Positions 2,817 through 23,689 of a stretch of 64,000 nucleotides of DNA are shown here, piece by piece. The stretch covers positions 62,001 through 126,000 of the forward strand of contig NZ_QGNJ01000006.1 of the NCBI RefSeq assembly GCF_003336875.1. The letters run 5' to 3'. Each line of letters starts with the position of its first letter. Position 1 is the stretch's first letter. A program made the position numbers and the translations under genes. The DNA comes from Oleisolibacter albus (GTDB lineage Bacteria; Pseudomonadota; Alphaproteobacteria; Azospirillales; Azospirillaceae). The notes under the pieces were generated by a model. It made no database searches and had not been told where the DNA came from. It saw only the letters and a list, made by a program, of their open reading frames with translations.

Positions 2817-3458
2817 ATGCCGCCGTCCGTCTCCATCGATGATCCTGCCCGCCCGGCCGAGGCTGCCACGCCGCGGGCCGCCGCCATGCGCCAGCGGCTG
2901 ATGCAGGCAGGGGCGGAGCTGTTGGGCGAGGTGGGCGTGGAGCGCATCTCCACCAACATGGTGGCGGCGCGGGCCGGCGTGTCGCCGCCCATCTTCTACA
3001 GGCACTTCAAGCACAAGTACGATCTGCTGGCCGCGCTGGGCGAGGCGCTGATGGAACGGCAGAATCTCATCCTGCATGACTGGCTGGAGGGCGCCGAGAG
3101 CTTCGAAGCGTTGATGGCGGGTCATTACCGCTTCCTGCTGGCCTCCATCGAGGTGACGGCGGCCATGTCCAACGCCGTCTGGATCATGCGGGCCCTGCGG
3201 GCCGTGCCGGCCCTGGCGGTCGTGCGGCTGGCCTCCCACGAGGAGGGCACCGGGCGCATCACCGCCGTGATGCGCCGGCTGCTGCCGGAGGCTGATCCCG
3301 CCGAACTGCGCCTGCGCGCCCGCATCGCCGTCGAGGCCGGCTACAGCGTCATCGAAATGGCACTGGAGGACCCGGGTCATGATGCGCCGGCCCTGTGCCG
3401 CAGCCTGACCGACATCTGGTCCGGCGGCCTGTTGCAGGGAGTGCGTTCCCATCCGTGA
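2817..3458 (+). CDS. TetR/AcrR family transcriptional regulator
   Basis: About 213 residues. A Pro-rich N-terminal tail is followed by a typical TetR helix-turn-helix (roughly residues 22-70), with the TNMVAARAGVS...FYRHFKHK pattern of recognition and YxHF-type helices. The rest is a helical ligand-binding domain. The start is uncertain: the frame is open further upstream, no good ribosome-binding site is seen, and 2817 was chosen for normal family length. It is the first gene of a co-directional block. Two tandem palindromes between it and the cytochrome gene (3546-3581) are likely its operator, so it probably represses the catabolic genes downstream and responds to their substrate. The ligand is unknown. 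Confidence 0.85.
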   Translation: MPPSVSIDDPARPAEAATPRAAAMRQRLMQAGAELLGEVGVERISTNMVAARAGVSPPIFYRHFKHKYDLLAALGEALMERQNLILHDWLEGAESFEALMAGHYRFLLASIEVTAAMSNAVWIMRALRAVPALAVVRLASHEEGTGRITAVMRRLLPEADPAELRLRARIAVEAGYSVIEMALEDPGHDAPALCRSLTDIWSGGLLQGVRSHP

Positions 3459-3545
3459 CCGGCCCGCGCCGGCCGGAGCCTCGATGCAAACGCATAACGA
3501 TTCAGTGGGTGCATGATCGAAAGGGTCTTGCGCGGCGTCTGGTGC

Positions 3546-3581
3546 TTAGTTATCACTAACTGCGATGTTAGTTATCGCTAA
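3546..3581. promoter_or_regulatory. Tandem palindromic operator, probably for the TetR regulator
   Basis: Two near-identical 14-bp imperfect palindromes: TTAGTTATCACTAA (3546-3559) and TTAGTTATCGCTAA (3568-3581). They start 22 bp apart, about two helical turns. Each has TTAGT/ACTAA-type arms around a 4-bp centre, the usual form of a TetR-family operator. They lie 46 bp upstream of the cytochrome c5 start and just after the tetR gene. Confidence 0.65.
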
Positions 3582-3626
3582 CGCACCTCTATTTCCACTC
3601 ATCGTTTCCACTTGGGTTGCCTGCCG

Positions 3627-4019
3627 ATGCCGCTGTTGCCACGGCTGTCGGGTGCATGGCTGCGCCCGTTGGCCCTGCCCGTTCTCGCCTGTCTCGCCCT
3701 TTGTGCCTGCGGTCCGGCCGAGGCCCCCAGGCCGACCCCGGAGGTCATCGCCGCGGTGCGTCCGGCCGACGCCCGGCTGGCGGAGATCTACGCCACCGCC
3801 TGTCATGCCTGCCACACCACGCCGGACAGCGGCGCCCCCCTGACCGCTGTGCCGGCCCAGTGGCGCGACCGTCTGGCCAAGGGCATGCCGGCGGTCCTGA
3901 CCAATGTGGTGCAGGGGTTGAACGGCATGCCGGCCGGCGGCCAGTGCTTCGCCTGCACCCCGGCCGACTATGAGGCCCTGATCCGCTTCATGAGCAGTCC
4001 CCCGTCCGCCTCGCCGTAA
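3627..4019 (+). CDS. Cytochrome c5-like lipoprotein
   Basis: A 130-residue protein with a hydrophobic leader (about residues 12-27) ending in a lipobox-like LCAC, so it is probably a lipoprotein anchored in the periplasm. A haem-binding CHACH (CxxCH, residues 59-63), a Met ligand in GMPAGG (about 101) and a following Cys pair (107/110) match the small cytochrome c5 family. It is a single-haem electron carrier. Next comes a Tat-type FAD oxidoreductase gene (67 bp gap), so the cytochrome is likely that enzyme's electron acceptor, as in periplasmic lactone or alcohol dehydrogenases; this is inference. The start is an ATG; the frame also opens at a TTG 15 bases upstream. Confidence 0.8.
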   Translation: MPLLPRLSGAWLRPLALPVLACLALCACGPAEAPRPTPEVIAAVRPADARLAEIYATACHACHTTPDSGAPLTAVPAQWRDRLAKGMPAVLTNVVQGLNGMPAGGQCFACTPADYEALIRFMSSPPSASP

Positions 4020-4085
4020 AGCGGCCCAACGCGCCTGTTTCCCGCCCCGTTTCCCGCCCCGCGTCCCAAGGAGACCACGACCGTC

Positions 4086-5489
4086 ATGCTGTCCCGGCGT
4101 TCCCTGTTCCTGCTGATGGGTGGTGCGGCGGCCCTGGCCGGCGCCGGTTACGGCGCGTCCCGCGTGGGCGAGCAGCCGGAGCCGCCGCTGCCGCCGGGCC
4201 AGGATAGGCAGGGGCGCCTGCTCTGGCGCAACTGGTCGGGCCTCCAGACTGCCTATCCCGCCACCCGTGCCGCCCCGGCGGATGAGGGCGAACTGGCCGA
4301 CATCCTGCGCCGGGCCGAGGGGCCGGTGCGGGCCGTGGGCTCCGGCCATTCCTTCATGCCGCTGGTGCCGACGCCGGGAACGCTGGTGACCCTGGACCGC
4401 ATGAGCGGTCTGGCCGGGCATGATCCGGCCACCGGCACCGCCACCGTCCGCGCCGGTACGCGGCTGGTGGAGCTGGGCACGGCCCTGGCCGGCATCGGGC
4501 AGGAGATGGCCAACCTGCCCGACATCAACAAGCAGTCCCTGGGCGGGGCCCTGGCCACCGCCACCCATGGCACCGGCGCCGCCCTGCCGGCCCTGCACGG
4601 CAATGTCACCGCCCTGCGTCTGGTGACCGCCGCCGGCGAGGTGCTGGATTGCGATGCCAGCCGCAATCCCGAATTGTTCGCCGCGGCCAAGGTGGGGCTG
4701 GGGGTGTTCGGCATCGTCACCCAGGCCACGCTGCGCAACGGACCGCTGCGGCGGGTGGAGCGCAATGTCTGGCTGCAGCCGCTGGAGCAGACCCTCGCCG
4801 AATGGCCGGCCTTGCGGGCGGCCCACCGCAATGTGGAATTCTATTATCTGCCCTTCACCGACATGACGGCCGTCATCACCCATGACGAGACCGATGCCCC
4901 GGCCACGCCACGCCCGCCGGCCCAGGACAACGAGGCGCTGCTGGATCTGAAGCGGCTGCGCGACTGGCTGGGCTGGTCGCCTGCCCTGCGCCGCCGCATG
5001 GCCAAGCTGGCCCTGTCGGGCCTGGAACCGGAGAAGGTGGTGGGGGAGAGCTGGCAACTGCTGTCCAACGAGCGCCCGGTGCGCTTCAACGAGATGGAAT
5101 ACCATCTGCCGCTGGAGGCACAGCCCCAGGCCCTGCGCGAGGTGGTGGCCGTCATCGAGACCAACCGTCCCGACGTGTTCTTCCCCATCGAGGCGCGCGT
5201 CATCGCGCCCGATGAAGCCTGGCTGTCGCCGTTCCAGGGACGCATGACCGGATCCATCGCCGTCCATGCCTATTACAAGGACAATTACGCCTTCCTGGCG
5301 GCGCTGGTGGAACCGATCCTGCGCCGACATGGCGGCCGGCCGCACTGGGGCAAGCTGAACAGCCTAGGCACAGCCGATTTCGCCGCTCTTTACCCCCGCT
5401 TTGCCGAGGCCAGCGCCCTGCGCCGGTCGCTGGATCCCGAGGGCCGGCTGCTGAACGACTATCTGCGCGGGATCTTCGCCCATGGCTGA
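4086..5489 (+). CDS. Exported FAD-linked oxidoreductase, D-arabinono-1,4-lactone oxidase family
   Basis: 467 residues. The N-terminus has a twin-arginine-like leader (SRRSLF followed by a Gly/Ala-rich hydrophobic stretch), suggesting Tat export with FAD bound. The FAD-binding VAO/PCMH fold follows, with the GSGHSF motif near residue 80 and LGGALATATHGTG around 155. The C-terminal half carries ALO-family signatures including FPIEARVIAP and the HWGK motif near residue 420. Family members oxidise aldono-lactones or sugar alcohols. AAGGAG lies about 10 bases before the ATG. The stop overlaps the start of the next gene by 8 bases, so the two are translationally coupled. With the adjacent cytochrome c5 it probably works as a periplasmic dehydrogenase. 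The substrate is unknown. Confidence 0.8.
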   Translation: MLSRRSLFLLMGGAAALAGAGYGASRVGEQPEPPLPPGQDRQGRLLWRNWSGLQTAYPATRAAPADEGELADILRRAEGPVRAVGSGHSFMPLVPTPGTLVTLDRMSGLAGHDPATGTATVRAGTRLVELGTALAGIGQEMANLPDINKQSLGGALATATHGTGAALPALHGNVTALRLVTAAGEVLDCDASRNPELFAAAKVGLGVFGIVTQATLRNGPLRRVERNVWLQPLEQTLAEWPALRAAHRNVEFYYLPFTDMTAVITHDETDAPATPRPPAQDNEALLDLKRLRDWLGWSPALRRRMAKLALSGLEPEKVVGESWQLLSNERPVRFNEMEYHLPLEAQPQALREVVAVIETNRPDVFFPIEARVIAPDEAWLSPFQGRMTGSIAVHAYYKDNYAFLAALVEPILRRHGGRPHWGKLNSLGTADFAALYPRFAEASALRRSLDPEGRLLNDYLRGIFAHG

Positions 5490-6705
5490 GGATCGGCCGG
5501 TCCATGACGCCTATTTTACCACCCTGGCGGCGGCGCTGGACCGGGCCGGGCTGGCGGAGCCGGTGCTGGTACTGGACCTGCCGCGCCTGGATGCCAATGC
5601 CGATGCGGTGGCCGGCATTCTGGCCGGCGGGCCGGCCGTGCGGCTGGTGGTGAAGTCGCTGCCCTGCGCCCCGTTGCTGCAACGACTGGCGCAGCGGCTG
5701 GACACACGCCGCTACATGGTGTTCAGCCGGGCCATGCTGCTGGACATGGCGGCGGTGGATGCCGGAGCCGACCTGCTGCTGGGCAAGCCGTTGCCCGTGG
5801 CGGCGGCGGCGGCCTATTACGATGCCGTCGGGGCGGAGGCGCCGTCGCCGCACTGGCTGGTGGATACGCCGGAGCGCCTGGACCAATACGCCGTGCTGGC
5901 CCGCACCTGCGGGCTGCGGCTGCGGGTGTCTATCGAGATCGATGTGGGGCTGGGGCGCGGCGGTGTCGGCGATCCCGCTGTCTTGGCCGCCATGCTGGAC
6001 CGGCTGCCGCCAGAGATCACGGTTACCGGACTGATGGGGTACGACCCGCATCTGGCCAAGCTGCCGGAAGCGCTGGGGCTGCGCCGCCGCGCCCTGGCCG
6101 ACAGCCGGGCGCGCTATGCCGTCCTGGCCTCGGTGCTGAAGGCACGGCTGCCGCCGGAGCGCTTTGCCGCCCTGACCCTGAACACGGCGGGCAGCCCGAC
6201 CTATGCCCTGCATGCGCCCTGCGGGGGCGGCGGACTGAGTACCCGGGCCGTGGCCAACGAGGTGGCCATCGGCTCGGCCTTCGTGAAGCCCGCCGATTTC
6301 GATCTCGATACGCTGGTCCGCCACCGGCCCGCCTGTTTCATCGCCACGCCGGTTCTGAAGGTTCAGGACCCGGCCGGGCTGCCGGGTCTGCCCGGGCTGG
6401 CGCCGCTGCTGGCGCGGCTGCGTCCGTCCACGGCGCGGGCCTGCTTCATCCATGGCGGCAACTGGCTGGCCGATCCGGTGTCGCCGCCGGCGCTGCGGCC
6501 AAGCCGCCTCTATGGCCGCTCCAGCAACCAGGAGCGCTGGGCCGGGCCGCGGCCGCGCCGCGGGGAGCGGGCCGTGCGGCCCGACGACTGGATCTTCCTG
6601 CGCCCGCGGCAGAGCGAGGCGCTTTTTTTGCAGTTCGGTTCCCTGGCCGTGTTCGACGGCCGGGCGATCAGTGGGCGTTGGCCGGTATTCCCGTCCTCCG
6701 CCTGA
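5482..6705 (+). CDS. PLP-dependent D-threonine aldolase / D-serine deaminase-like (DSD1 family) enzyme
   Basis: 407 residues, with an alanine-racemase-type (fold III) barrel at the N-terminal side. VLVLDLPRLDAN precedes VVKSLP, whose Lys58 is the expected PLP Schiff-base residue; the SIEIDVGLGRGG strand and a C-terminal beta domain follow. Family members cleave D-beta-hydroxy amino acids to glycine and an aldehyde, or deaminate D-amino acids; metal dependence is usual. The protein is cytosolic, with no leader. It overlaps the FAD oxidoreductase gene by 8 bases. An aldehyde dehydrogenase downstream would suit an aldolase product. The C-terminal metal ligands are not clearly recognisable as His/Cys of classic D-threonine aldolase, so the reaction remains open. 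Confidence 0.7.
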   Translation: MAEDRPVHDAYFTTLAAALDRAGLAEPVLVLDLPRLDANADAVAGILAGGPAVRLVVKSLPCAPLLQRLAQRLDTRRYMVFSRAMLLDMAAVDAGADLLLGKPLPVAAAAAYYDAVGAEAPSPHWLVDTPERLDQYAVLARTCGLRLRVSIEIDVGLGRGGVGDPAVLAAMLDRLPPEITVTGLMGYDPHLAKLPEALGLRRRALADSRARYAVLASVLKARLPPERFAALTLNTAGSPTYALHAPCGGGGLSTRAVANEVAIGSAFVKPADFDLDTLVRHRPACFIATPVLKVQDPAGLPGLPGLAPLLARLRPSTARACFIHGGNWLADPVSPPALRPSRLYGRSSNQERWAGPRPRRGERAVRPDDWIFLRPRQSEALFLQFGSLAVFDGRAISGRWPVFPSSA

Positions 6706-6796
6706 ACGGGCGCCGGCGGGACGGCGCACAACAAGAACAGGGCGCAAAGCCCTGCCGGCCCGCCAAGCGGGTCCGGGCTGAACAGGGGGTATGGCA

Positions 6797-9040
6797 ATGA
6801 CGAAGAGGACCGTGGGTGCCTATGGCTTGAAGTCTGTGCTGATGTGCGGGGTCATGCTGGCGGCCGTGCCGGCCGGTGCGCAGGAGGCCCTGGAGGAGAT
6901 CATCGTCACCGCCCAGAAACGGGCGCAGAACCTGCAGGAGGTGCCGGTCAGCGTCACCGCCCTGTCGGGCGAGACGTTGCTGAACGCCGGGGTCCAGGAC
7001 GTCATGGATCTGGGCAAGCTGGCGCCCGGCCTGCAGATCACCGCCACCGACGCCGCTGCCAATCCCAAGATCTTCATCCGCGGCGTCGGCCTCAGCGATT
7101 TCAACGCCAATGCCTCCGGCGCCGTCGGTATCTATGTGGACGGGGCCTATGTGGCGTCGCCGCTGGCGCAGATGGGACAGTTCTTCGACGTGGCCCAGGT
7201 GGAGGTGCTGCGCGGGCCGCAGGGCACCCTCTATGGCCGCAACACCACAGGCGGCGCCATCAACATCACCACGCGCCGGCCCGACTTCACGCCGTCGATC
7301 GAGGGGCGGGCGGAATATGGGCGCTATGACGCCCTGACCCTGGATGCCGCCGTGGGCGGCGGCGTGGTGGAGGACCGATTGGCGCTGCGTCTGGCAGGCA
7401 CGTTCCAGCGTGACGACGGGCCGACGCTGAACCGGGTCAGCGGCGACCATGTCAACGCCACTGACCGCTGGGCCCTGCGTGGCAGCGCCCTGTTTACACC
7501 TGGTGAGACGGTGGAGGTGCTGCTGCAGCTGCGCGGCGGACGCAGCACCGGCGATGCCATCCACACCCAGGCGCGGGCCCTGCAGCCGGCCGTCCCCGAG
7601 GCGGCGGGACCGGACGGGCTGTGCCGGCCGGAGCTGACGGCGTCCGGCCTGTGCACCGATGCGCTGGGCTATGCCGATACCGACGGCGATCCCTATGCTG
7701 GTGATTACAATCTCGAGGGCAAGGACAAGATCGATCTGGCCGGGGCGACGCTGAACCTGCGCTGGTCCGGCGATGCACTGACGCTTTATTCCATCACCGC
7801 CTTCGACTACGCCAAGCGCGACGACGAGGAGGATACCGACGCCAGCCCCAATAGCCTGCTGCACACCTGGTACGAGGCGACCCAGCGCGATTTCTCCCAG
7901 GAGTTCCGTGGCGAGGCGGAGTTCGGTGCGGTCAAGGCCGTGGCCGGTGTCTATTACCTGCACGATTACCTCGACACCGACAGCGGCTTCGACGTGCTGC
8001 GCGATCTGCGGCCGCTGTTCATCACGCCGGACAATCCGACCGGCCTATCGATCGAGAACAATGTCGCCCTGGTCGGCTATCCCTACCGTCAGACCACCGA
8101 CAGCTATGCCGCCTTCGGACAGGCGGACTGGCAGGCCACCGACCGGCTGACGCTGACCGCCGGCCTGCGCTATTCCCACGACAAGAAGGATTTCCGCTAC
8201 CGCAGCACGCTGGAGCGGGAGATCGAGCTGTTCGCGCTGGAGGACGACAAACCCTTCGGCAGCCTGTCCGGCCGTCTGGGGGCGCAGGTCGCGCTGACCG
8301 ACACGGCCATGGCCTATGCCAGCTATAATCGCGGCTACAAGAGCGGCGGCTTCTTCGGCGGCTATACCCGTGACCCGGCCGACCTCGCCCCCTACGAGGA
8401 CGAGGTGGTCGATGCCTATGAGATCGGCACCAAGACGGAATGGCTGGACGGCCGGCTGCGGCTGAACCTGTCGGGCTTCTATTACGATTACCAGGACCTG
8501 CAGGTATTCCAGCTGGTGGAACGGGCCGGCCTGCCGGTGCAGACCTTCGACAATGCCGCCAGCGCCCGCATCAAGGGCCTGGACTTCGAGCTGATGACGG
8601 TGCCGCTGAGCGGTCTGGAGCTGGGGCTGAGCGGCGAGTATCTGGACGCCACCTACCGCGATTACCGGTCGCAGGGGCAGGATCTGGAGGGCAACCGGCT
8701 GCCGTCGTCGCCGCGCTGGTCGCTGACCGGCAGCGCCCGCTACAGCTACCCCATCGACGGGTTCGGCGCGGTGGAGCTGGCCGCCAATGTCTCCTACCGC
8801 TCCAAGGTCTATTTCGACAGCAACAATGTCGATCGGCTGAGCCAGGGCAGCCTGTGGCTGGCCGACCTGACGCTGGGCTGGAGTTCCAGTGATGGCAGCC
8901 TTGGGGCCGGGCTGATGGTCAACAACCTGTTCGACAAGGATTACGTGGTCGACATCAACCCGCTGGAGAGCTTCGGGCTGGATGCGGTGGTGCCCGGCCG
9001 GCCGTGCCGGCTGAGCGGCTATGTGCGCTGGCAGTTCTGA
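6797..9040 (+). CDS. TonB-dependent outer-membrane receptor
   Basis: About 747 residues. A signal peptide ends near AGAQEA and is followed directly by the TonB box-like EEIIVTAQKR. A plug domain comes next, with IFIRGVGLSDF, VEVLRGPQGTLYGRNTTGGAIN and the usual barrel repeats. The C-terminus ends in Phe (RWQF), as expected for an outer-membrane beta-barrel. AGGGGG at 6784-6789 gives a 7-base spacing to the ATG at 6797; an in-frame ATG at 6791 is too close. It is of the type often used for carbohydrates or aromatic compounds rather than only siderophores, and its place inside a catabolic cassette argues for substrate import. The ligand cannot be read from sequence. Confidence 0.92.
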   Translation: MTKRTVGAYGLKSVLMCGVMLAAVPAGAQEALEEIIVTAQKRAQNLQEVPVSVTALSGETLLNAGVQDVMDLGKLAPGLQITATDAAANPKIFIRGVGLSDFNANASGAVGIYVDGAYVASPLAQMGQFFDVAQVEVLRGPQGTLYGRNTTGGAINITTRRPDFTPSIEGRAEYGRYDALTLDAAVGGGVVEDRLALRLAGTFQRDDGPTLNRVSGDHVNATDRWALRGSALFTPGETVEVLLQLRGGRSTGDAIHTQARALQPAVPEAAGPDGLCRPELTASGLCTDALGYADTDGDPYAGDYNLEGKDKIDLAGATLNLRWSGDALTLYSITAFDYAKRDDEEDTDASPNSLLHTWYEATQRDFSQEFRGEAEFGAVKAVAGVYYLHDYLDTDSGFDVLRDLRPLFITPDNPTGLSIENNVALVGYPYRQTTDSYAAFGQADWQATDRLTLTAGLRYSHDKKDFRYRSTLEREIELFALEDDKPFGSLSGRLGAQVALTDTAMAYASYNRGYKSGGFFGGYTRDPADLAPYEDEVVDAYEIGTKTEWLDGRLRLNLSGFYYDYQDLQVFQLVERAGLPVQTFDNAASARIKGLDFELMTVPLSGLELGLSGEYLDATYRDYRSQGQDLEGNRLPSSPRWSLTGSARYSYPIDGFGAVELAANVSYRSKVYFDSNNVDRLSQGSLWLADLTLGWSSSDGSLGAGLMVNNLFDKDYVVDINPLESFGLDAVVPGRPCRLSGYVRWQF

Positions 9041-9056
9041 CGGGGAGATGACGAGG

Positions 9057-10472
9057 ATGCCCGAATCCCTGGACCCGCCGCCGGAGACGGCGCTGGACTT
9101 CGCCTTCGCCCGGCTGAAGGCGGCGGCTGCCGCCGATCCCGATCCCGATGCCGGGCGGCGGCGCGGCTGGCTGGCCGCGCTGGATCGGCAGCTGGTGCGG
9201 CGGCAGGCCGAGATCGTGGCCGCTATCGACGCCGATTTCGGTGGCCGGCTGGCCCACGAGACGCTGTTCGCCGAGCTGTATGTCACGGTGGCGGCGCTGC
9301 GCCATGCCCGCCGGCATCTGGGACGCTGGATGAAGCGCAGGCGGCGGCCGGTGCCGCTGACGCTGCAGCCGGGCCGGGCCTGGGTCGAGCCGCAGCCGCT
9401 GGGCGTGGTCGGCGTCATCGCCCCCTGGAACTATCCGTTGCAGCTGGCCCTGTGCCCGTTGGCGGGCATCCTGGCAGCCGGCAACCGGGTGCTGCTGAAA
9501 CCGTCGGAGCTGACGCCGCGGACCACGGCGCTGGTGGCGGAGATCCTGGCGGCTTCCCTGCCGGCGGATGTGGCGGCGGTGGTGTCGGGCGGGCCGGAAC
9601 TGGGCGCCCGTTTCGCCGCCCTGCCGTTCGATCATCTGCTGTTCACCGGCTCCACCCGCGTCGGCCGCATGGTCATGCAGGCGGCGGCGGCCAACCTGAC
9701 CCCGGTGACGCTGGAGCTGGGCGGCAAGTCGCCGGCCCTGCTGCTGCCCGATGCCGATGTGGCGGCGGCGGCGGCCGACATCGCCTATGGCAAATTCACC
9801 AATGCCGGCCAGACCTGTGTGGCGCCGGACTATGTGCTGCTGCCGCGGCCGGCGCTGGAACCGTTCCTGGCGGCGCTGCGGACGGCAGTGGCGACCCACT
9901 TCCCGGTCAGCGACGGTGCTTCCGCCATGACCGTGCTGTTCGGCGACAGGGCGCGGGAGCGGGCGGCGGCGCTGTTGCGGGATGCGACGCAGGCGGGGGC
10001 GCGGGTGGAGATGCTGGCCCCGCCGCCGCCGGGGCAGGCGCTGGCCCCGGCGGCCATCGTCGATCCGCCGGCGGGCTGCGGGCTGCTGCGGGAGGAGATC
10101 TTCGCGCCGCTGCTGCCGGTGCTGACCTATGACGGGCCGGATGAGGCGCTGGCGCGTATCCGCGCCGGAGACCGCCCCCTGGCGCTGTACCTGTTCGGCC
10201 GCGACCGGACCGCCATCGACCGGGTGCTGCGCACCACGGCGGCCGGCGGCGTGTCGGTCAACGACACGCTGATCCATGTGGCGGTGGAGGATCTGCCCTT
10301 CGGCGGCATAGGTCCAAGCGGCATCGGCCGCTATCACGGCCGCGACGGGTTCGACAGCTTCAGCCATCTGAAGGCGGTGTTCCAGCGGGGCCGGCCCCGC
10401 ACCGACCGGCTGATCCGCCCGCCGCTGAACGGCCTGCACCGGCGCCTGCTGCGCCTTCTGTTGGGGGGCTGA
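9057..10472 (+). CDS. Aldehyde dehydrogenase, coniferyl-aldehyde-dehydrogenase-like
   Basis: 471 residues, the short class-3/CalB-like ALDH size. IAPWNYPLQL marks the NAD(P)-binding region. Glu220 in LELGGKSP and Cys254 in NAGQTCVAPDYV are the catalytic base and nucleophile. EIFAPLLPVL is the usual distal motif, and the C-terminus ends in a hydrophobic/basic tail as in membrane-associated family members. It oxidises an aldehyde to the acid with NAD(P). The start at 9057 has GGGAGA 8 bases upstream; 9048 is also in frame. It lies 16 bases after the TonB receptor, and its stop overlaps the start of the symporter gene (TGATG). It is the likely sink for an aldehyde produced in this cassette. Confidence 0.88.
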   Translation: MPESLDPPPETALDFAFARLKAAAAADPDPDAGRRRGWLAALDRQLVRRQAEIVAAIDADFGGRLAHETLFAELYVTVAALRHARRHLGRWMKRRRRPVPLTLQPGRAWVEPQPLGVVGVIAPWNYPLQLALCPLAGILAAGNRVLLKPSELTPRTTALVAEILAASLPADVAAVVSGGPELGARFAALPFDHLLFTGSTRVGRMVMQAAAANLTPVTLELGGKSPALLLPDADVAAAAADIAYGKFTNAGQTCVAPDYVLLPRPALEPFLAALRTAVATHFPVSDGASAMTVLFGDRARERAAALLRDATQAGARVEMLAPPPPGQALAPAAIVDPPAGCGLLREEIFAPLLPVLTYDGPDEALARIRAGDRPLALYLFGRDRTAIDRVLRTTAAGGVSVNDTLIHVAVEDLPFGGIGPSGIGRYHGRDGFDSFSHLKAVFQRGRPRTDRLIRPPLNGLHRRLLRLLLGG

Positions 10473-11881
10473 TGCCCATGACCGGTTCCGTTCCTCTCAG
10501 TCCCCCCGGTGTCGCGCAAGGTGCGGCCGGGCCGGACGCCCCGGTGGGGCATCTGCGGGCGCTGGCCTTCGGCACCGGTTCGGTGGCGGCGGCGACCTTC
10601 AATGTCACGCCGCAGCTCTGGCTGCTGTTCTTTCTGACCGAGACGCTGTCGGTGCCGGCGGCCTGGGCCGGGCTGGCCGTGCTGGTGCCCAAGGCCTGGG
10701 AATTCCTGTTCGATCCTGCCGTCGGCTGGCTGTCCGACCGTGCCCGTGCCCGCCATGGCGTGCGCTGGCCCTGGCTGCTGGCCGGCGCCGTGCTGTTTCC
10801 CGGCGCCTTCATGGCCCTGTTCGGGCCGCCGGTGTTCGCGGACTGGCGCTGGACCCTGGGCTGGGTCACCGGCGCCTTCCTGCTGGCCACCAGCGCCTAT
10901 TCCATTTTCGCCATCCCCTTCGTCGCCTTGCCGGGGGAGGTGTCGCGCGATCCGGCGGTGCGCACGCGGGTGGTGGCCTGGCGCATGGCCTTCGTCGGCG
11001 TCGGCGTGCTGATGGCCGGCGGGTTGGCCCCGGTGCTGGTGGAGCAGGGCGGTGGCGGCCGGGCCGGTTTCGCCCATATGGCGGGGGTGCTGAGCGTGGT
11101 CTGCACCCTGACCATGCTGCTGGCGGCAATGGCTGCCCGCGGCTTTCCCCGCCAGGCACCGGTCCATGGCGGCAGTGGGGGCGGCAGTGGGGACGGCAGC
11201 GGTGCGCCCGGTGACCGTGCCCTGGCGCTGCTGCTGGCCAACCGCGCCTATCGCTGGCTGTGGGGGGCCTATCTGCTGCAGATGGTGGCCATCGCCGTGA
11301 CCGCGGCCATGCTGCCCTATGCCGTGACCCATGTCATGGGCGCCCCGGCCGATCACGCGGCGCTGCTGTTCGTGGCCATGACCCTGGGCAGCATCTTCAC
11401 CATGCCGCTGTGGACCTGGGCGCGGCGGCGGATGGGAACGCTGCCCGCCTATGGGGCGGCGACGCTGCTGTGCGTGGCCGGGTCTGTGGCGCTGTACGAT
11501 GTGGTGCTGGCCAGCCTGCCGCTGGCCTGCCTGGCGGCGTTCCTGGCCGGGGTCGGGCAGGCCGGGCAGCAGCTGCTGCCTTTCGCCCTGCTGCCGGCGG
11601 TGACGGAGCGGAGCGGCGGTCCCCATGCCGATCCGCTGCGCCATGGCGGCCTGTTCGCCGGGGTCTGGGTGGCGGGGGAGAAGCTGGGACTGGCCCTGGG
11701 CGGGGCCCTGGCCGGGCTGTTGCTGGGGCTGGCCGGCTATGTGGAAGGGGGTCAGGGACAGGCGCCCGGCGTGGTGGCCTGGATCCCCGTGCTCTTCGCC
11801 CTGGTCCCGGCCGGCATCTTCCTGGTCAGCCTGCTGCCGTTGCGCCTGCTCGACCGGCTGGCGCCGGGGCTGGGGGACTGA
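10472..11881 (+). CDS. MFS transporter of the GPH (glycoside-pentoside-hexuronide:cation symporter) type
   Basis: 469 residues with about 12 hydrophobic helices. The N-terminal NVTPQLWLLFFLTE and the DPAVGWLSDRAR loop are the MFS_2/GPH signature. The protein should import a solute across the inner membrane with a cation. The ATG overlaps the aldehyde dehydrogenase stop (TGATG), and a run of G residues upstream may serve as ribosome-binding site; ATG 10478 is an alternative. A GPH transporter beside a lactone-oxidase-like enzyme points to a sugar-derived or glycoside substrate for the cassette. It is the last co-directional gene of the cassette. Confidence 0.85.
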   Translation: MPMTGSVPLSPPGVAQGAAGPDAPVGHLRALAFGTGSVAAATFNVTPQLWLLFFLTETLSVPAAWAGLAVLVPKAWEFLFDPAVGWLSDRARARHGVRWPWLLAGAVLFPGAFMALFGPPVFADWRWTLGWVTGAFLLATSAYSIFAIPFVALPGEVSRDPAVRTRVVAWRMAFVGVGVLMAGGLAPVLVEQGGGGRAGFAHMAGVLSVVCTLTMLLAAMAARGFPRQAPVHGGSGGGSGDGSGAPGDRALALLLANRAYRWLWGAYLLQMVAIAVTAAMLPYAVTHVMGAPADHAALLFVAMTLGSIFTMPLWTWARRRMGTLPAYGAATLLCVAGSVALYDVVLASLPLACLAAFLAGVGQAGQQLLPFALLPAVTERSGGPHADPLRHGGLFAGVWVAGEKLGLALGGALAGLLLGLAGYVEGGQGQAPGVVAWIPVLFALVPAGIFLVSLLPLRLLDRLAPGLGD

Positions 11882-11999: not shown

Positions 12000-12284
12000 A
12001 TGCTGATCCCGAAGAAATCCCCTGCTGCCAGACCCGCCCGTGATGCGGAGGGCGTGGCCCTGCGCGCTGTGGCCTTCCTGGCGGGGGACGAGGAACTGCT
12101 GGCCCGCTTCGTCACCCTGACCGGCTGCGGCCCGGACCAGCTGCGCGCCGGCCTGTCCGATCCGGCCTTCCTGGGCGGGGTCCTGGATTTCCTGCTGGGC
12201 GACGAACCCACCGCCGCCGCTTTCGCCGCCGCCGAGGATCTGTCGCCGGAGGATCTGGCGCGGATACGGTCCAGGTTGCCGTAA
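12000..12284 (+). CDS. DUF3572 family protein
   Basis: A 94-residue protein with the conserved alphaproteobacterial pattern: an RAVAFLAGDEELLARFVTLTG helix pair, LRAGLSDPAFLGGVLDFLLGDE, and a short acidic-basic C-terminus. Function is unknown. In many alphaproteobacteria it is a small single-copy gene near cell-cycle response regulators. The ATG at 12000 gives family-normal length, whereas the frame opens much further upstream inside the symporter gene. It is separated from that gene by about 118 bases and is probably a separate unit. Confidence 0.75.
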   Translation: MLIPKKSPAARPARDAEGVALRAVAFLAGDEELLARFVTLTGCGPDQLRAGLSDPAFLGGVLDFLLGDEPTAAAFAAAEDLSPEDLARIRSRLP

Positions 12285-12502
12285 GCGGGCGGAGGACGAC
12301 CGTTTCATTCTGGAGCGCTGCTCGACAGGCGCTCACCGTGGAGGCGTTTGGCTCCGCGTGCCGATCCGTTCGGGGCGTGCATCCGAGGCTGCCGCGGGTT
12401 GGACAATCCGCACGTGTCGGCGGCAGCCGGGCATTGCCCGCCGCCGCACCGAGGTCAACGCCTTTGCAGCCATTGGCCCGGAGCCTTACGGATGCGCGGG
12501 TT

Positions 12503-13081
12503 TCACTCGAACCAGGGACGGTAGATTTGTCGCGGCATCACATTCCGGTTGCGGGTCTTAATCGTCCGGGCGGGAACTCCACCAACGACTGTCCAAGCGT
12601 CCACATCCCTGGTGACAACGGCGCCCGCGGCAACGACGCATCCTTCGCCAAGAGTGACCCCCGGCAATATGGTGGCGCCGCTACAGATCCAGGCATAATC
12701 ACCGATGCTGACCGGCGCTGCCCGGTCGGCATGGTGCGGAGAGTCCGGATCATGTTCCAAGGTCCATATCCGGACTTCCGGTGCGATGTCCACATAATCG
12801 CCGATCGTGAGCCGGGCGCCCCTGCCGTCGAGCACCACGCCCGCATTGATCACCGACCTACTGCCGATCTGGATGCGAAAGCCGCGCAGGCGTGTCCTCA
12901 TGAGGATAGATGAGCCGGGTCCAACCTTGATAAAGAGCCGGTAAAAAAAAAGGCGAACAACGTGAAACGGGATACTGGCAACAAGGCTATTCAAAAATAA
13001 AATTACAAAATTTCTTGCAAATAGATAGGCCTGGCTCGTGGAGTGTCTTTCTCCATCTTTTGCTGATTTTCCTATCCACAT
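12503..13081 (-). CDS. Left-handed beta-helix O-acyltransferase (WcaF/maltose-acetyltransferase-like)
   Basis: 192 residues. A hydrophobic/basic N-terminal part is followed by hexapeptide repeats (IGSRSVINAGVVLDG, LTIGDYVDIAPEVRIW, VSIGDYAWICSGATILPGVTLGEGCVVAAGAVVTRDV), the left-handed parallel beta-helix of acetyl-CoA-dependent O-acetyltransferases. His in TLEHDPDSP is the likely catalytic residue. It probably acetylates a sugar of the exopolysaccharide. AAGGAA precedes the ATG by 6 bases. It follows the Wzz gene (69-base gap) in the leftward arm of the polysaccharide island. Confidence 0.85.
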   Translation of the reverse strand: MWIGKSAKDGERHSTSQAYLFARNFVILFLNSLVASIPFHVVRLFFYRLFIKVGPGSSILMRTRLRGFRIQIGSRSVINAGVVLDGRGARLTIGDYVDIAPEVRIWTLEHDPDSPHHADRAAPVSIGDYAWICSGATILPGVTLGEGCVVAAGAVVTRDVDAWTVVGGVPARTIKTRNRNVMPRQIYRPWFE

Positions 13082-13150
13082 TTTTATTTCCTTTTGTGCG
13101 TATCCCGTTGTGCATATCCGACGTGGGCAGGCTGTCCTGGTCGTTTCGCT

Positions 13151-14068
13151 CTATCGGTTCTTATGCGGGGTCAGAAGGATGAAAATAACGCCCAGAAAAA
13201 ATCCGGCCAAGATGCCAATAAGTACAGAAAGTGGGAGCGATTTATTCACTAACTTCGCTTCCCGCATCGGCTCCTGGATGAACTGAAGCGGAAAAGTCGT
13301 TGCGCTGCGGGCGATGCTCACCGCCCTATACTGGTCAGCCAGGGTGGAGATGATGGCGGACCGGCTGGATGTGATATCGACGCGCGAAATTTCCTGTTCA
13401 AGGAAGCGGATATACTGTTCTTTCTCGGAAATTATACGATTCCGCACCACTTCCGACAGTTCAATCACCATAATCCGGAGAAACTCTTCCGCAAACTGTG
13501 GATCGCTCGAACGCATGCTCAGCTGGAAAACAGAAGATTCTGACTGTCTCACCAGTGTAATGCTGCCATCAATGAAATTAGAGAGGTCATAATAATTAAC
13601 AGTCTCGCTTCTAGGAATGTTCAGCACGGCAGCAAGGGTGCTTTTAACGGCTTCCCCGACGCCATGTCGGGGTATCCATCGCTGGTTCTGTTCATCCCAC
13701 CTTTTGGCGAAGATTTTCCTTAAAAAGTTGTGCTTGCTTTCCAGCCGAAGGGCGAATGCTGGGGAGGTCATCAGCGACTTGAACTGGTCAACCTCGGTGG
13801 AGGTGGTCGGCCCGCGAAGGAGGGAAAAAGACGAAGTCGCCTGATTGGAGCGGATAGCGCTAACCGGGTCCGAATTTTCCACCATCAGGGCTGTGATCCG
13901 ATACTTTGGCGCCGACAAAGAAAGCTGAATAAGAGACAGGAGCAGTGCGCTTGCCATGGAAATAAGCAGAACCTTCCAACGCCGACGGATAATACGGGTC
14001 ATCTGGTCCAGAAGATCCCCTTGGCTATCAACCGATCCATCGTGATAACGGCTATCGTGTAGCGTCAA
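13151..14068 (-). CDS. Wzz/GNVR-type polysaccharide chain-length determinant protein
   Basis: 305 residues. Two transmembrane helices (about 30-52 and 280-300) flank a periplasmic helical domain, the layout of polysaccharide co-polymerases that set chain length. The N-terminal RRRWKVLLISM and the C-terminal SVLIGILAGFFLGVIFILL segments are typical. No C-terminal tyrosine-kinase domain is present, so it is a Wzz-type or split Wzc-type protein. The likely start is a TTG at 14068 with GGGAGA about 8 bases upstream; the next ATG (14002) would cut just before the first membrane helix. The gene lies between the glycosyltransferase and the acyltransferase on the same strand. Confidence 0.8.
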   Translation of the reverse strand: MTLHDSRYHDGSVDSQGDLLDQMTRIIRRRWKVLLISMASALLLSLIQLSLSAPKYRITALMVENSDPVSAIRSNQATSSFSLLRGPTTSTEVDQFKSLMTSPAFALRLESKHNFLRKIFAKRWDEQNQRWIPRHGVGEAVKSTLAAVLNIPRSETVNYYDLSNFIDGSITLVRQSESSVFQLSMRSSDPQFAEEFLRIMVIELSEVVRNRIISEKEQYIRFLEQEISRVDITSSRSAIISTLADQYRAVSIARSATTFPLQFIQEPMREAKLVNKSLPLSVLIGILAGFFLGVIFILLTPHKNR

Positions 14069-14178
14069 TTTATTTTCTCCCGTCAGAATATCCTGCTTAG
14101 CTTCAGGCTCTGCTATGGCGAAGGCATATTTTGTACGACCGGATTGTCCGAAAACCTAGCATAAGCCAGACAACCGGG

Positions 14179-15489
14179 CTACGAATTCCCATTGCCGCAT
14201 GCTCCGCCCTTGCCGAGCAGAATATCGACGAGTGTTTCTGCCCGATGAAATGAGGCATAGGCAGGCGCCCGTGCCTGCGCCTGCGCCTCAAGTTCTGGCA
14301 GTCGCCGAACCGCGTCGATCACGGCTGCCCCAAAGGACTTTTCCCCATCGAACAGCACGGCGCCCGCATTGCTGGCTTGGCTGCCAAGCCAGCAATGGGT
14401 CGGGACGACGATCGGCTTGGCGGCAGCGATGGCTTGCACCAAGACGCCGGAACTCCGCGCCCTATATGCCTCCGGGCGATAAGGCAGAAGCACGATGTCG
14501 GCGGCCAGCAACAGACTCTGAAACTCCGGCGAGGTCAGAGGCTGGTCCAACAGTTTTACGCTCGGAAATCCGGCCAAGCGCATCCGGGCGGCCGTCACTT
14601 CCGGTTCCTCATAGCCTTTCGGGGCTACGGACTGGAAAAGGGCGCAATGGGGAATGCCGGCATCTTCCAGCGCTTGTACGGCCGACGGCAGGAGATCGAA
14701 TCCTTTTTCTGCCCGCGGATTCCCGAGATAGACCAGCTTAAGGCCCGGTTCGGCGCGCCATTTCTGTAAACTGTCCAAATCCGGCTGTGGTTGCGGATAG
14801 GGAATGGGAAGAAGGTGGAAATCCACGGCCCCGGCTGCCGAAAGACGATAGTCGTCGCACAGTTCTTCCGTGTCGCAGTAGAAGCGGAAAGCCCTGAGGG
14901 TCGCGGGATCGGCTGCCATCCGGCGGAACAAGGCGGATATGCCGGGATAGCCGAGATCCGGCTGTTCCATTTCCGCCGCGTCTCGCCGGAGCACAATATG
15001 GAACTGTCCGGCCTGATAGGCCGGATTTGAGGCGACCGCCGACCAAACGATATGCAATTCGCACAGGCGGATCGTCGGAATGAAGACGTGAGTCTCCGGG
15101 CCGATGCCGACGCGGTCCAGGGCCGACTCAAATTCTTGCTGAAAGACGGCCATCTGGTCGGACCGCCGGGTCGGCGCCACTCCCTTGACCAGGCGATATA
15201 CCCTGCGCAGCGCCTGAGCCAGGGGCACTTGAAGCGTTGCCGGAAGATGGCCAAGAAGATCCCGGACCCATCGTTTGGTCGGGTTGGTCTGGTCCCAGGC
15301 CATAGAGAACCAGGGATAGAGGTGTGCTCCGGGGAACGAGACCGTTGCGGAATCGCAGTCCTTGTTGGAGAAGACGGTGATCGACGCGGCACGTGCGTGG
15401 ACGGCTTCGATCACGGAAAGATCATACTCGTAATAGTGACCGGACATTCCTCTAAGAGACTGATCCATCACAACAAAATTGACGACCAT
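14179..15489 (-). CDS. Glycosyltransferase, GT-B fold (family 4-like)
   Basis: 436 residues. The C-terminal half has the GT-B donor-binding pattern: LKLVYLGNPRAEKGFDLL (start of the second Rossmann domain), then LLAADIVLLPYRPEAYRARSSGVLVQAIAAAKPIVV, with the Glu/Ser-Gly nucleotide-sugar contacts of GT4. The N-terminal half is an acceptor-type domain with little recognisable detail. It should transfer a sugar to a lipid-linked glycan in the cytoplasm. GGGGACAGG lies just before the ATG. A short frame ends 15 bases upstream of the start. Confidence 0.78.
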   Translation of the reverse strand: MVVNFVVMDQSLRGMSGHYYEYDLSVIEAVHARAASITVFSNKDCDSATVSFPGAHLYPWFSMAWDQTNPTKRWVRDLLGHLPATLQVPLAQALRRVYRLVKGVAPTRRSDQMAVFQQEFESALDRVGIGPETHVFIPTIRLCELHIVWSAVASNPAYQAGQFHIVLRRDAAEMEQPDLGYPGISALFRRMAADPATLRAFRFYCDTEELCDDYRLSAAGAVDFHLLPIPYPQPQPDLDSLQKWRAEPGLKLVYLGNPRAEKGFDLLPSAVQALEDAGIPHCALFQSVAPKGYEEPEVTAARMRLAGFPSVKLLDQPLTSPEFQSLLLAADIVLLPYRPEAYRARSSGVLVQAIAAAKPIVVPTHCWLGSQASNAGAVLFDGEKSFGAAVIDAVRRLPELEAQAQARAPAYASFHRAETLVDILLGKGGACGNGNS

Positions 15490-15503
15490 AACCTGTCCCC
15501 GCC

Positions 15504-15692
15504 CTAAGGCTTCTGCAGTTCGCTATTGTCCGATACGCCGACAGATGCCGTAAACCACGAAGGCAGCCCCAGAGGCAATATCGCGGAACTGGCGCCGATC
15601 AACATTGCCTGGGCGCGCTCCGGTCCGTGCCGGGCAGGAATCGTCCACCGTAGCCCCACCTCCGTACCGACCACCTGCGCCATTGTAGCCAA
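15504..15692 (-). CDS. Possible small protein upstream of the glycosyltransferase gene
   Basis: A 62-residue frame ending 15 bases before the glycosyltransferase start, so spacing would allow one transcript. The product has one moderately hydrophobic stretch (AMLIGASSAILPLGLPSWF) and no recognised domain. No good ribosome-binding site is seen, and an opposite-strand frame of similar length exists. It may be a relic or not a gene. Confidence 0.25.
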   Translation of the reverse strand: MATMAQVVGTEVGLRWTIPARHGPERAQAMLIGASSAILPLGLPSWFTASVGVSDNSELQKP

Positions 15693-16265
15693 TTGTCGTG
15701 GGTTCTAACGTTCATCCGTCAAGTCCGCAATCGAAATTCCCGTCCTGCGGGGGCTTGCAGCCCGGTCTGCGGCGATGAACAGAACGGCTGCTTCTTTATG
15801 TGGGGGCGACTTCAGTGAGCTGTTGTCGTCAACAAATTTGTGAAGATTTGTTGAAACAAACAGGGATGGCCAAATTTGTCTTGCTTGCGCGGATTGCCGC
15901 CAAGTAGGTCGCAGACGAAACGCGGCGCGATTTTGTCACTCAGGAGAGGTGTGGGCTTGACCATGGCAGGGGCGCTTGCGATAAGAAATCGTCGTCCCCG
16001 ACGGGTACCTTCCGGGTTAATGATATGGATGCTTCGGGCAGGGGGACAACTTCCCTGGCGACGCCTCCCCGCTTGTTGCGTGCGATATTGAGGGGGTCAT
16101 GCGCAATTGAATGAACTGGAATTCCGCAAGAGAAATCTAAATTGTTGGATATTTCTCTTTTGGGAGCATAAGATCCCACTCCGTTAAATCAAATAGCCTG
16201 CTGTTGGGGCGATGCTGTGGCCCGCGGCGGCTGGGTGACGGGCCGACTATAGATGAGGCGACATT
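15693..16265. other. Divergent intergenic region between the two arms of the polysaccharide island
   Basis: About 570 bases with no convincing gene. It should hold the promoters of both arms. A perfect inverted repeat lies at 15830-15853. A 29-codon frame from ATG 16025 to 16114 and a 13-codon frame after 15860 were seen but have no recognisable homology. The stretch 16110-16200 is AT-richer and is the likely promoter side for the rightward arm. Confidence 0.4.
15830..15853. promoter_or_regulatory. Inverted repeat, possible operator in the divergent promoter region
   Basis: CAACAAAT (15830-15837) and ATTTGTTG (15846-15853) are perfect 8-base arms around an 8-base spacer, in otherwise GC-rich DNA. 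The centre-to-centre distance suits a dimeric DNA-binding protein. No T-run follows, so a terminator is unlikely. The binding protein is unknown. Confidence 0.35.
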
Positions 16266-17270
16266 GTGATCATTAGCCGAACCCCATTTCGCGTCTCTCT
16301 TTTTGGTGGTGGCACAGATCTTCCGCTTTGGTACCGCCGGCATGGTGGTGCGGTTCTCGGCATGGCGATCAACAAATATACCTACCTGACCCTCCGGCGG
16401 CTGCCTCCCTTTTTCGAACACAAGCACCGGATCGTCTATTCCCGCATCGAGCAGGTGCGCGAAAATTCCGAAATCGAGCATCCGGCCGTTCGGGCCGTGT
16501 TTGATGAGGTGGGGGTCAGCGAGGGGCTTGAGATTCATAATGACGCTGATCTTCCGGCGCGCTCGGGACTCGGGTCCAGTTCGGCCTTCACCGTCGGTCT
16601 GCTGAACGTCCTGGCGGCCCAGCGTGGTGTTCGCATGTCCAAGCAGCAGCTGGCCCTCGAAGCGATCCGCATCGAGCAGGACGTGATCGGCGAGGCCGTC
16701 GGATCGCAGGACCAGATCTGGGCCGCCTATGGAGGCTTCAATCGGATCGACTTCCAGGCGGACGGCTCCTTTGATGTTCGGCCGGTCGTCATGCCCTCGC
16801 AACGCATGGACGCTCTGCTCGGCTCGCTTATGCTGTTTTTCACCGGCTTCTCCCGGTTTGCGGCTCAGATCGAGCACAAGAAGATGGAGAATTTGGAGCA
16901 GAAGGAAAAACAGCTGCACGAGATCAGGGGATTGGTGGACGAGGCCGAGACCATCCTATGCCAGCCGGACCGTAGTCTGGACGAGTTGGGAGGGCTGTTG
17001 CATGAGGGCTGGATGCGCAAGCGGTCGCTGGCTGACGGGGTCAGCACGGGGAGCATCGACGAGATCTATGATGCCGCCCTGGGGGCCGGCGCCATTGGTG
17101 GCAAATTGCTGGGCGCTGGCGGCGGCGGTTTCATCCTGTTCTATGTTCCGCCGGAGAAACGCCAGTCGGTGCGCAAGCGCCTCTCCTCTCTGATCGAGGT
17201 CGATCTCGGCATCGATCGCACCGGCAGCACCATTGTGATGTATGAACCCAACGGCCTGCATCGCCGTTGA
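16266..17270 (+). CDS. GHMP-family sugar kinase (HddA-like D-glycero-D-manno-heptose 7-phosphate kinase)
   Basis: 334 residues. N-terminal ISRTPFRVSLFGGGTDLP, the ATP-binding ARSGLGSSSAFTVGLLNVL near residue 100, and C-terminal KLLGAGGGGFILFY are the three GHMP motifs in the form typical of HddA kinases. In known pathways HddA phosphorylates a heptose 7-phosphate at C1 before GDP activation; related enzymes act on fucose. The start is GTG with GAGG 7 bases upstream. It heads the rightward arm of the island and is 23 bases from the epimerase gene. GmhA, GmhB and HddC partners are not in this window, so the exact sugar is uncertain. Confidence 0.78.
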   Translation: MIISRTPFRVSLFGGGTDLPLWYRRHGGAVLGMAINKYTYLTLRRLPPFFEHKHRIVYSRIEQVRENSEIEHPAVRAVFDEVGVSEGLEIHNDADLPARSGLGSSSAFTVGLLNVLAAQRGVRMSKQQLALEAIRIEQDVIGEAVGSQDQIWAAYGGFNRIDFQADGSFDVRPVVMPSQRMDALLGSLMLFFTGFSRFAAQIEHKKMENLEQKEKQLHEIRGLVDEAETILCQPDRSLDELGGLLHEGWMRKRSLADGVSTGSIDEIYDAALGAGAIGGKLLGAGGGGFILFYVPPEKRQSVRKRLSSLIEVDLGIDRTGSTIVMYEPNGLHRR

Positions 17271-17293
17271 AGATCTGCAGGATTGGACACACC

Positions 17294-19014: not shown

Positions 19015-19050
19015 AAACCAAAGCCATTCGTGAGCAGTTGGAGGGGTGAC

Positions 19051-19779: not shown

Positions 19780-19796
19780 ATATTGGAGAGACGGCA

Positions 19797-22113: not shown

Positions 22114-22127
22114 AATTTGCTTTTCAA

Positions 22128-22154
22128 GCATTAAATGTCAATGCCTGATTTTTT
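22128..22154 (+). terminator. Possible weak intrinsic terminator after the flippase gene
   Basis: GCATT (22128-22132) pairs with AATGC (22140-22144) and is followed within 4 bases by six T residues. The stem is only 5 bp, so the call is tentative. The next gene has its own GGAGGA ribosome-binding site. Confidence 0.3.
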
Positions 22155-22209
22155 GCATTTCTAGCGGGTTTTATCTGGCGTTTTGTGGTGCGGAATGGAG
22201 GAAATGCTG

Positions 22210-23379: not shown

Positions 23380-23385
23380 CCCATC

Positions 23386-23652
23386 CTAATTTATCGATGC
23401 TGTAGGGGGCGGCCGCCCGCGGCGCAAGGGAGGGGGCGTCTGGTGCGCCGTCAGGCCATAGTAGCCCCGGTAGGCCTTGCCCCAGCGGTCACGGAAGCTG
23501 GTGTGGTAGAAGTTGCGGCTGATTTCCCGGTGTGCCGTGGACCGGTGCCGGCCGAGCGCCCGCGCGATCAGCGGGACCGGCATCTTGGCCTCCAGCATCT
23601 CCCCAATCCGGCGCCGCTCGCACAAGGTGATGTGGGAGTAGTGGGTTCCCAT
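23386..23652 (-). pseudogene. IS30-family transposase, N-terminal remnant
   Basis: 88 residues matching the N-terminal helix-turn-helix of IS30 transposases: HYSHITLCERRRIGEML, then ALGRHRSTAHREISRNFYH and KAYRGYYGLTAHQ. The frame stops at 23386. The DDE catalytic domain (about 250 residues) is absent, and the adjacent DNA to the left is the AGE gene. So this is a truncated, non-functional copy. It marks the right edge of the polysaccharide island. Confidence 0.8.
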
Positions 23653-23689
23653 GCATACCTCCATCGCTCAACCCATTGAAAAGAAATGA

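Follow-up and report, generated by a model that had tools for sequence, protein, structure and literature searches.

Which compound is taken up and oxidised by the products of a cassette of seven genes found in the alphaproteobacterium Oleisolibacter albus? The cassette is located at positions 2817-11881 of a stretch of 64,000 nucleotides (contig NZ_QGNJ01000006.1, positions 62,001 to 126,000; hereafter the window) of a 4.69 Mb genome, and codes for a TetR-family regulator, a c-type cytochrome, a flavin adenine dinucleotide (FAD) oxidoreductase of the ALO type, a fold-III pyridoxal phosphate (PLP) enzyme, a TonB-dependent receptor, an aldehyde dehydrogenase (ALDH) and a GPH symporter. A first reading made from the letters only (the sequence-only reading) had considered the cassette as uncharacterised and had stated that these enzymes do not come together in any one known pathway. 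Neither statement is supported, since the three core genes are found in the same order and with the same domains in sphBCD of Pseudomonas aeruginosa (PA5328-PA5326), and very probably form an operon of this type. We propose that the whole cassette is a sphBCD-type operon that would oxidise sphingoid bases, extended with genes for uptake and follow-up steps, a reading to which, taken as an entire route, we give about even weight for and against.

The three core genes and sphBCD

A tblastn search of plasmids with the PLP enzyme returned four records, and the one of P. aeruginosa carries a cytochrome c5, an ALO-type enzyme and a PLP enzyme beside a transporter and sphR. The sphBCD genes for the cytochrome c, the ALO-type FAD enzyme and the PLP enzyme with an Ala_racemase_N domain are co-directional as they are here, and the identities to the window proteins are 40% (SphB), 40% (SphC) and 44% (SphD). 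The accessible text of Okino and Ito (PMC5150637) describes the sphBCD domains as cbb3-type cytochrome oxidase subunit III, D-arabinono-1,4-lactone oxidase and alanine racemase N-terminal domain, which is the Pfam result for the three core genes of the window, and gives an 18 to 45-fold induction by sphingomyelin. According to the accessible part of DiGianivittorio et al. (PMC11893366), sphB and sphC, and not sphD, matter for the growth of P. aeruginosa with sphingosine, sphingosine builds up without sphBC, and SphC is exported by the twin-arginine translocation (Tat) system; orthology of sphBCD is regarded there as hard to assess.

The two loci differ around this core. The window has a TetR gene and palindromes where P. 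aeruginosa has the AraC-type SphR (SphR was not searched for elsewhere in the genome), which is a difference in control that leaves the enzymes unaffected. Besides, there is a TonB receptor here and the porin SphA there, the ALDH and the GPH symporter are extra, and the PLP gene overlaps the FAD gene. In Ruegeria pomeroyi DSS-3 (SPO_RS19890-SPO_RS19870) the order TetR-cytochrome-ALO-DSD1 and the tight spacing are those of the window, followed by a DUF819 gene in the place of the receptor, ALDH and symporter.

Conservation of the SphC-SphD pair

Our comparison covers 80 named loci, the top-ranking ones among at least 331 relatives in a profile search with the PLP enzyme; a PLP open reading frame (ORF) was detectable in 79 of them, L079 being excluded for lack of one. 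An ALO-type gene was found directly upstream of SphD on the same strand in 71 of the 79 (L099 and L100, two contigs of one genome, are both within the 71). When the longest ORF starts are taken, 57 of these 71 adjacent pairs overlap, most commonly by 8 bases (19/71), as do the SphC and SphD genes of the window. A match to the window cytochrome was present at 50 of the 79 loci.

The same linkage appears in a sample of 190 genomes of the class. SphD was found in 10 and TIGR01679, the model that recognises SphC, in 18 (17 above the cut-off), and all 10 SphD genomes were among the 18 (Fisher 3.3e-12), with the pair adjacent in nine. In the remaining genome, G132, the two genes are apart and the ALO adjoins a canonical PF14031 aldolase-like gene. 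The distances of SphC and SphD also correlate (r 0.78 over 65 pairs, with a maximum of 0.17 in 2000 permutations; 65 of the 71 paired rows were used, the six from the class sample being left out). The co-occurrence of ALO-like and DSD1-like genes, proposed by the sequence-only reading as a check, is therefore strongly conserved.

The complete cassette has a narrower distribution. The PLP gene was detected in four of ten other congeners searched, and all four (L101-L104) have the same seven genes in the same order. In Nitrospirillum (L021 of N. amazonense, L022 of N. iridis, and L105-L107) the order cytochrome, ALO, PLP, TonB, ALDH is kept and no GPH gene was found in the stretches. L105 has the TetR gene close by; in L021, L106 and L107 it is kilobases off, and the stretch of L022 does not contain it. 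SphD identity over these congeners and Nitrospirillum is 60-69%. This conservation indicates that the cassette is not a chance grouping, and the claim of seven co-directional, partly overlapping genes has been borne out by ORFs, Pfam matches and the four congeners.

Eleven ALOs of the class sample without a SphD partner were read (G084, G151 and two G219 fragments were left out). By eye, nine had no clear leader, several starts being unsure, and two (L139, L145) had both leader and cytochrome, resembling sphBC-only strains. At L141:5192-7614 a PF14031 gene with a His-Cys-Asp motif is followed after 8 bases by an ALO-type gene that has no SphD partner and is one of the nine without a clear leader by eye. 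From its sequence this may be the same enzyme pair made of different parts, with a D-serine-dehydratase/D-threonine-aldolase-type partner, and we count it in favour of the proposed route.

The pair is widespread beyond Pseudomonas, in Alpha-, Beta- and Gammaproteobacteria. Of 198 Actinomycetota genomes 19 matched the SphD profile at 1e-10 and were set aside as carriers; apart from the metagenome-assembled genome (MAG) on which the search was centred, the best match reached 90 bits versus 533. The SphC sequences of an 'Acidobacteria' MAG (L038) and a Hyphomonas MAG (L035) hardly differ. A mis-binned contig may be the cause, which makes the 'Acidobacteria' label unfit for describing taxonomic spread, and the Acidimicrobiales MAG L063 is equally doubtful. 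In Yoonia (L020) the SphC and SphD genes are about 5 kb apart on opposite strands, and an AMP-binding enzyme adjoins SphD. The SphD loci with no ALO match in their stretch are L028, L036, L057, L071, L072, L094 and L095.

SphB and SphC

The SphB-like protein has a hydrophobic leader, ending by eye in a weak lipobox (LCAC), a CxxCH motif, a Met and a second CxxC; the residues involved (C64, C67, H68, M106, C112 and C115) are unchanged in the four rows compared.

SphC scored 559.9 bits against the NCBIfam model TIGR01679 (bact_FAD_ox; curated cut-off 292.25) and by eye has a twin-arginine leader, SRRSLFL followed by a hydrophobic stretch. The structures of alditol (xylitol) oxidase 2vfr and of GalDH share with it the FAD domain and the GSGHSF and PHWGK motifs; in contrast to them, SphC has an export leader, a cytochrome partner gene and a PLP partner gene. 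H88 (in GSGHSF), R371 and K423 are kept in all 82 rows, paired and unpaired. In aldonolactone enzymes an Arg-Lys pair stabilises the substrate alkoxide, according to the part of PMC11099136 available, and from our own reading of the motif alignments R371/K423 may be this pair. Leaving out an unnamed FAD-binding protein, 2vfr was the best solved relative of SphC. Alditol oxidase acts on a terminal alcohol.

A quick SphC tree (midpoint root, careful search unfinished) was built from 83 rows: 61 named pairs, the window, three plasmid loci, six class-sample pairs, one split pair and 11 unpaired ALOs. The 61 are what is left of the 71 adjacent pairs of the named loci when those cut off or nearly duplicate are omitted. 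The branch starred in it separates the SphC of the window from that of P. aeruginosa, and unpaired ALOs are found on both sides.

Two other approaches to SphC were dropped. Position 145 (Pro in 57, Gly in 8, Ala in 4 and Ser in 2 of the 71 paired rows; Ala in P. aeruginosa) was considered as an oxygen gate, corresponding to Ala113 of GalDH, where the change to Gly opens the enzyme to oxygen (PMC11099136, accessible part); the correspondence comes from an alignment reading, and we drew no conclusion from it. A single-sequence structure model had a predicted local distance difference test (pLDDT) score of 35.5 and was not used.

Fold and active site of SphD

No leader was seen in SphD. Its AlphaFold2 model (mean pLDDT 94) superposes over the full length, residues 17-407, on D-threonine aldolase with Z 34 (34.2 for the top match) and a root mean square deviation of 2.5-2.6. 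The aldolases range from 34.2 to 33.0, with beta-hydroxyaspartate aldolase at 33.4, and D-threo-3-hydroxyaspartate dehydratase reaches 33.2. These are tied by fold since their Z values differ by less than 1; lower scores were obtained with chicken D-serine dehydratase (31.6) and with alanine racemases (at most 27). The model thus places SphD in the D-3-hydroxy-amino-acid aldolase/dehydratase group, the fold not choosing a reaction within it.

We have examined the active site over 43 aligned rows picked from the named loci, the P. aeruginosa protein being outside the 43. As in the aldolase structures (4v15, 7yqa, 6qkb), SphD has the PLP lysine, the carboxylate arginine and the stacking tyrosine: K58, R159 and Y187, which correspond in the alignment to Lys59, Arg157 and Tyr187 of D-threonine aldolase, are kept in 43/43 and in P. 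aeruginosa. Arg157 binds the substrate carboxylate, and the conservation of this arginine agrees better with an acid than with an alcohol as the substrate of SphD. Unlike the D-threonine aldolases, SphD has Gln-x-Glu in place of the His-x-Asp metal ligands. The PF14031 metal-binding domain gave no match in nine of nine SphD members with E up to 5 (most weak matches being dropped by the HMMER filters). SphD cannot be classed as a D-threonine aldolase without the His/Asp ligands. So the DSD1/D-threonine-aldolase label of the sequence-only reading holds for the fold and fails for the metal-binding domain typical of that group. His190 is present in 41/43, and either it or Glu379 may, as a conjecture from the alignment, serve as the base. 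The SphD of Eleftheria terrae (L018:7902-9194) has an arginine-rich hydrophobic stretch at the N-terminus, and the PLP enzyme may be exported in some species.

A sphingoid base as the likely substrate

Ceramidases (PF04734) were detected in 3 of the 10 class genomes with SphD and in 3 of the 180 others (p 0.002); one of the three matches is weak and the other two come from the same genus. Among genomes of the named loci 17 of 50 had a match, a set of 50 of the 80 loci chosen by us and including Gamma- and Betaproteobacteria, neither of which is in the background of 190 genomes. This association and the relation to sphBCD make a long-chain amino diol of the sphingoid-base type the likely substrate, more so than an amino sugar or an aldonolactone; the amino-sugar-like compound suggested by the sequence-only reading is the less likely choice. 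As no PF04734 match was found in the genome of the window, the substrate would have to come in already as the free base, or an enzyme outside our searches would have to release it.

The proposed route would start with sphingosine, sphinganine, phytosphingosine or a near relative. The TonB receptor would carry this amphiphile, or its carrier, across the outer membrane, and in the periplasm the Tat-exported SphC would oxidise the C1 alcohol, with the electrons passing to the cytochrome SphB. If C1 is oxidised fully to the carboxylate, the (2S,3R) amino diol would give a (2R,3R) 2-amino-3-hydroxy acid with unchanged geometry. The change from alcohol to carboxylate flips the C2 descriptor to R with no bond moved, so that the product is a D-amino acid of the D-allo-threonine type. 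This argument is our own, from the Cahn-Ingold-Prelog rules, and does not appear in the accessible parts of the sphBCD papers. It gives a reason for a D-specific PLP partner, and the cassette points to an unusual active site in SphD. This enzyme could split the beta-hydroxy D-amino acid into glycine and a fatty aldehyde that the ALDH would turn into a fatty acid. The gene set agrees with the exported FAD enzyme beside a c-type cytochrome, the aldolase-like PLP partner and the ALDH of the sequence-only reading, whose beta-hydroxy-D-amino acid intermediate is still the best inference; overall its interpretation is partly supported.

Cleavage to glycine and a fatty aldehyde was proposed in 2014, and apart from the sphBCD papers our literature searches listed nothing on a bacterial sphingosine route by an aldolase. 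These papers leave open what SphBC make and what SphD does, and the cassette suggests candidates for the later steps (ALDH, carrier). In the strongest version the cassette would cover, without any phosphate, all steps that lead from a sphingoid base to glycine and a fatty acid, parallel to the route of sphingosine-1-phosphate lyase, and SphD would be a new class of D-specific 2-amino-3-hydroxy fatty acid aldolase, in which an invariant Gln-x-Glu replaces the metal site of D-threonine aldolases. We hold this version doubtful.

A number of results weigh against the proposed route. In P. aeruginosa sphD is dispensable, sphBC-only strains show little or no effect, and it is unproven that SphBC act directly on sphingosine (PMC11893366, accessible part). 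The lack of a ceramidase match is a further difference from the P. aeruginosa system. Eight of the 79 SphD loci have no ALO directly upstream (in one it is 1.1 kb off, in seven none is in the stretch), and within 6 kb an ALDH match is found at 4 and a GPH match at 0 of the 79. In the tree the SphC of P. aeruginosa is apart from that of the window, its side holds 8 of the 11 unpaired ALOs, and the 'paired' state requires 5 changes. As for SphD, the fold fits a dehydratase as well as an aldolase (Z 33 versus 34); the metal ligands His347/Asp349 of D-threonine aldolase correspond to Gln377/Glu379 in 43/43, by a profile alignment with the canonical His-Cys-Asp protein of L141 that agrees with the C-terminal count in the structural match; and the position of the aldolase base His193 is taken by Lys in 26 rows, Ala in 7, Ser in 5 and other residues in the rest. 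As neither the ligands nor the base are kept, aldolase chemistry cannot be taken for granted.

The alternative that best survives is detoxification only, with SphBC oxidising sphingoid bases in the periplasm to a harmless product and SphD, receptor, ALDH and symporter belonging to a different or optional step. The dispensable sphD of P. aeruginosa and the lack of a known metabolite there would fit, as would the absence of SphD from 8 of the 18 class genomes with a TIGR01679 match. We consider it unlikely in view of the fact that SphD never occurs without SphC in the class sample (10/10), of the overlap of 57 of the 71 adjacent pairs and of the seven genes staying together in four congeners. 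It is rather improbable that another amphiphilic amino polyol is the substrate in this lineage, the operon having been taken over for it from a sphBCD-like ancestor. That would agree with the lack of a ceramidase match, the TetR and TonB receptor in place of SphR and SphA, and the doubtful orthology of SphC, against which stand the core gene order, the 44% identity of SphD to a sphingosine-linked enzyme and the ceramidase association across the group. Very unlikely in our view is a pathway with no carbon-carbon bond cut, in which a 3-keto base would result from the action of SphC on the C3 hydroxyl, or SphD would be a dehydratase, deaminase or epimerase. The absence of the aldolase metal ligands and the Z of the hydroxyaspartate dehydratase within the range of the aldolases (racemases fit less well, at around 25) speak for it; the terminal-alcohol oxidiser 2vfr as relative of SphC, R159 conserved for a carboxylate, and the ALDH in the operon, which suggests an aldehyde, speak against it. 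The lactone, sugar-alcohol or amino-sugar pathway of the sequence-only reading, suggested by ALO and GPH family names that are sugar-related in other members, is the least likely of all, as TIGR01679 includes also the sphingosine-linked SphC group and no kinase, lactonase or glycosidase is coded within 2817-11881, with a GH113 gene immediately upstream (1043-2308).

Accessory genes and regulation

The seven ORFs of the proposed sphBCD-type cassette were confirmed by ORF reading, all on the + strand (Table 1). The receptor and ALDH genes overlap by 20 bases and the ALDH and GPH genes by 1. The TetR protein was scanned from 2703, so the Pfam scan included 38 residues that precede the ATG at 2817.

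Table 1. Genes of the cassette and candidate operators, in window positions
Feature	Position	Strand	Matches or sequence
TetR-family regulator, candidate cassette repressor	2817-3458	+	TetR_N 4.5e-13, TetR_C_15 6.4e-06
SphB-like mono-haem cytochrome c	3612 (TTG) or 3627 (ATG) to 4019	+	Cytochrome_CBB3 3.1e-11
SphC-like ALO-type FAD oxidoreductase	4086-5489	+	Pfam ALO and FAD_binding_4; TIGR01679
SphD-like fold-III PLP enzyme	5482-6705	+	Ala_racemase_N
TonB-dependent outer-membrane receptor	6791-9040	+	Plug and TonB barrel
Aldehyde dehydrogenase related to ALDH3-type enzymes	9021-10472	+	Aldedh 1.4e-82
GPH/MFS_2 symporter	10472-11881	+	MFS_2 9.9e-67
Twin palindromes, candidate TetR operators	3546-3559 and 3568-3581		TTAGTTATCACTAA and TTAGTTATCGCTAA

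The palindromes are candidate operators, through which the TetR protein would repress the operon. They are the sole two matches in the window with at most 1 mismatch, but the window alone does not make them significant, as 19 of 100 shuffles yielded at least 2 matches at the same threshold. The palindrome TTAGYNNNNRCTAA marks the start of the cytochrome gene in the window and, with one or more exact copies, in nine of nine relatives read, mostly paired; L103 and L104 have a single exact copy each, and in L105 one of the two is inside the longest cytochrome ORF. Leaving aside duplicates of these same places, among the 177 loci only L079 and L098 match it, once each. The TetR gene is immediately 5' of the cytochrome gene in the four congeners read (L101-L104), and the palindrome is retained in L021, L106 and L107 although the TetR gene is kilobases distant.

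A TonB receptor match was found within 6 kb at 10 and a TetR match nearby at 16 of the 79 named loci (these neighbour counts, and the one given above for ALDH, include L021, and for TonB and ALDH also L022). Outside the family of the window two more of the 79 loci have an ALDH match (L085, L093). The best relative of the ALDH in the PDB was a steroid aldehyde dehydrogenase (9nxl, 6.6e-109), followed by a fatty aldehyde dehydrogenase (4qgk, 5.4e-80) and a benzaldehyde dehydrogenase (5ucd, 1e-79), which score alike; the best NCBIfam model, MdlD, gave 295 bits, under its cut-off of 550, so the match does not identify the aldehyde used. We also looked for a common downstream partner of SphD and found none: 75 ORFs gave TonB 6, short-chain dehydrogenase/reductase 5, ALDH 2, DUF819 2 and acyl-CoA dehydrogenase 2 among the 25 of 58 families listed (83 ORFs were picked and eight with a longer opposite-strand ORF, including the Ruegeria DUF819, omitted). 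The GPH protein (P0007) scored 72 bits to MFSD2A and 49 to MelB. The idea of an MFSD2-like lipid symporter was dropped because the second GPH protein of the genome (P0008) likewise scored higher to MFSD2A than to MelB (86 to the same symporter family, 55), and the GPH gene is neutral on the substrate class.

Neighbouring genes

The GH113-family glycoside hydrolase gene precedes the TetR gene on the + strand, like the cassette. On the other side, the scanned genes at 12000-24000 code for a hexapeptide transferase, a weak glycosyltransferase match, a GHMP kinase, an epimerase and a polysaccharide biosynthesis membrane protein, probably a surface-polysaccharide cluster. The G+C content of the window drops from about 0.70 to 0.41 at 20-22 kb, and the cluster was perhaps acquired laterally.

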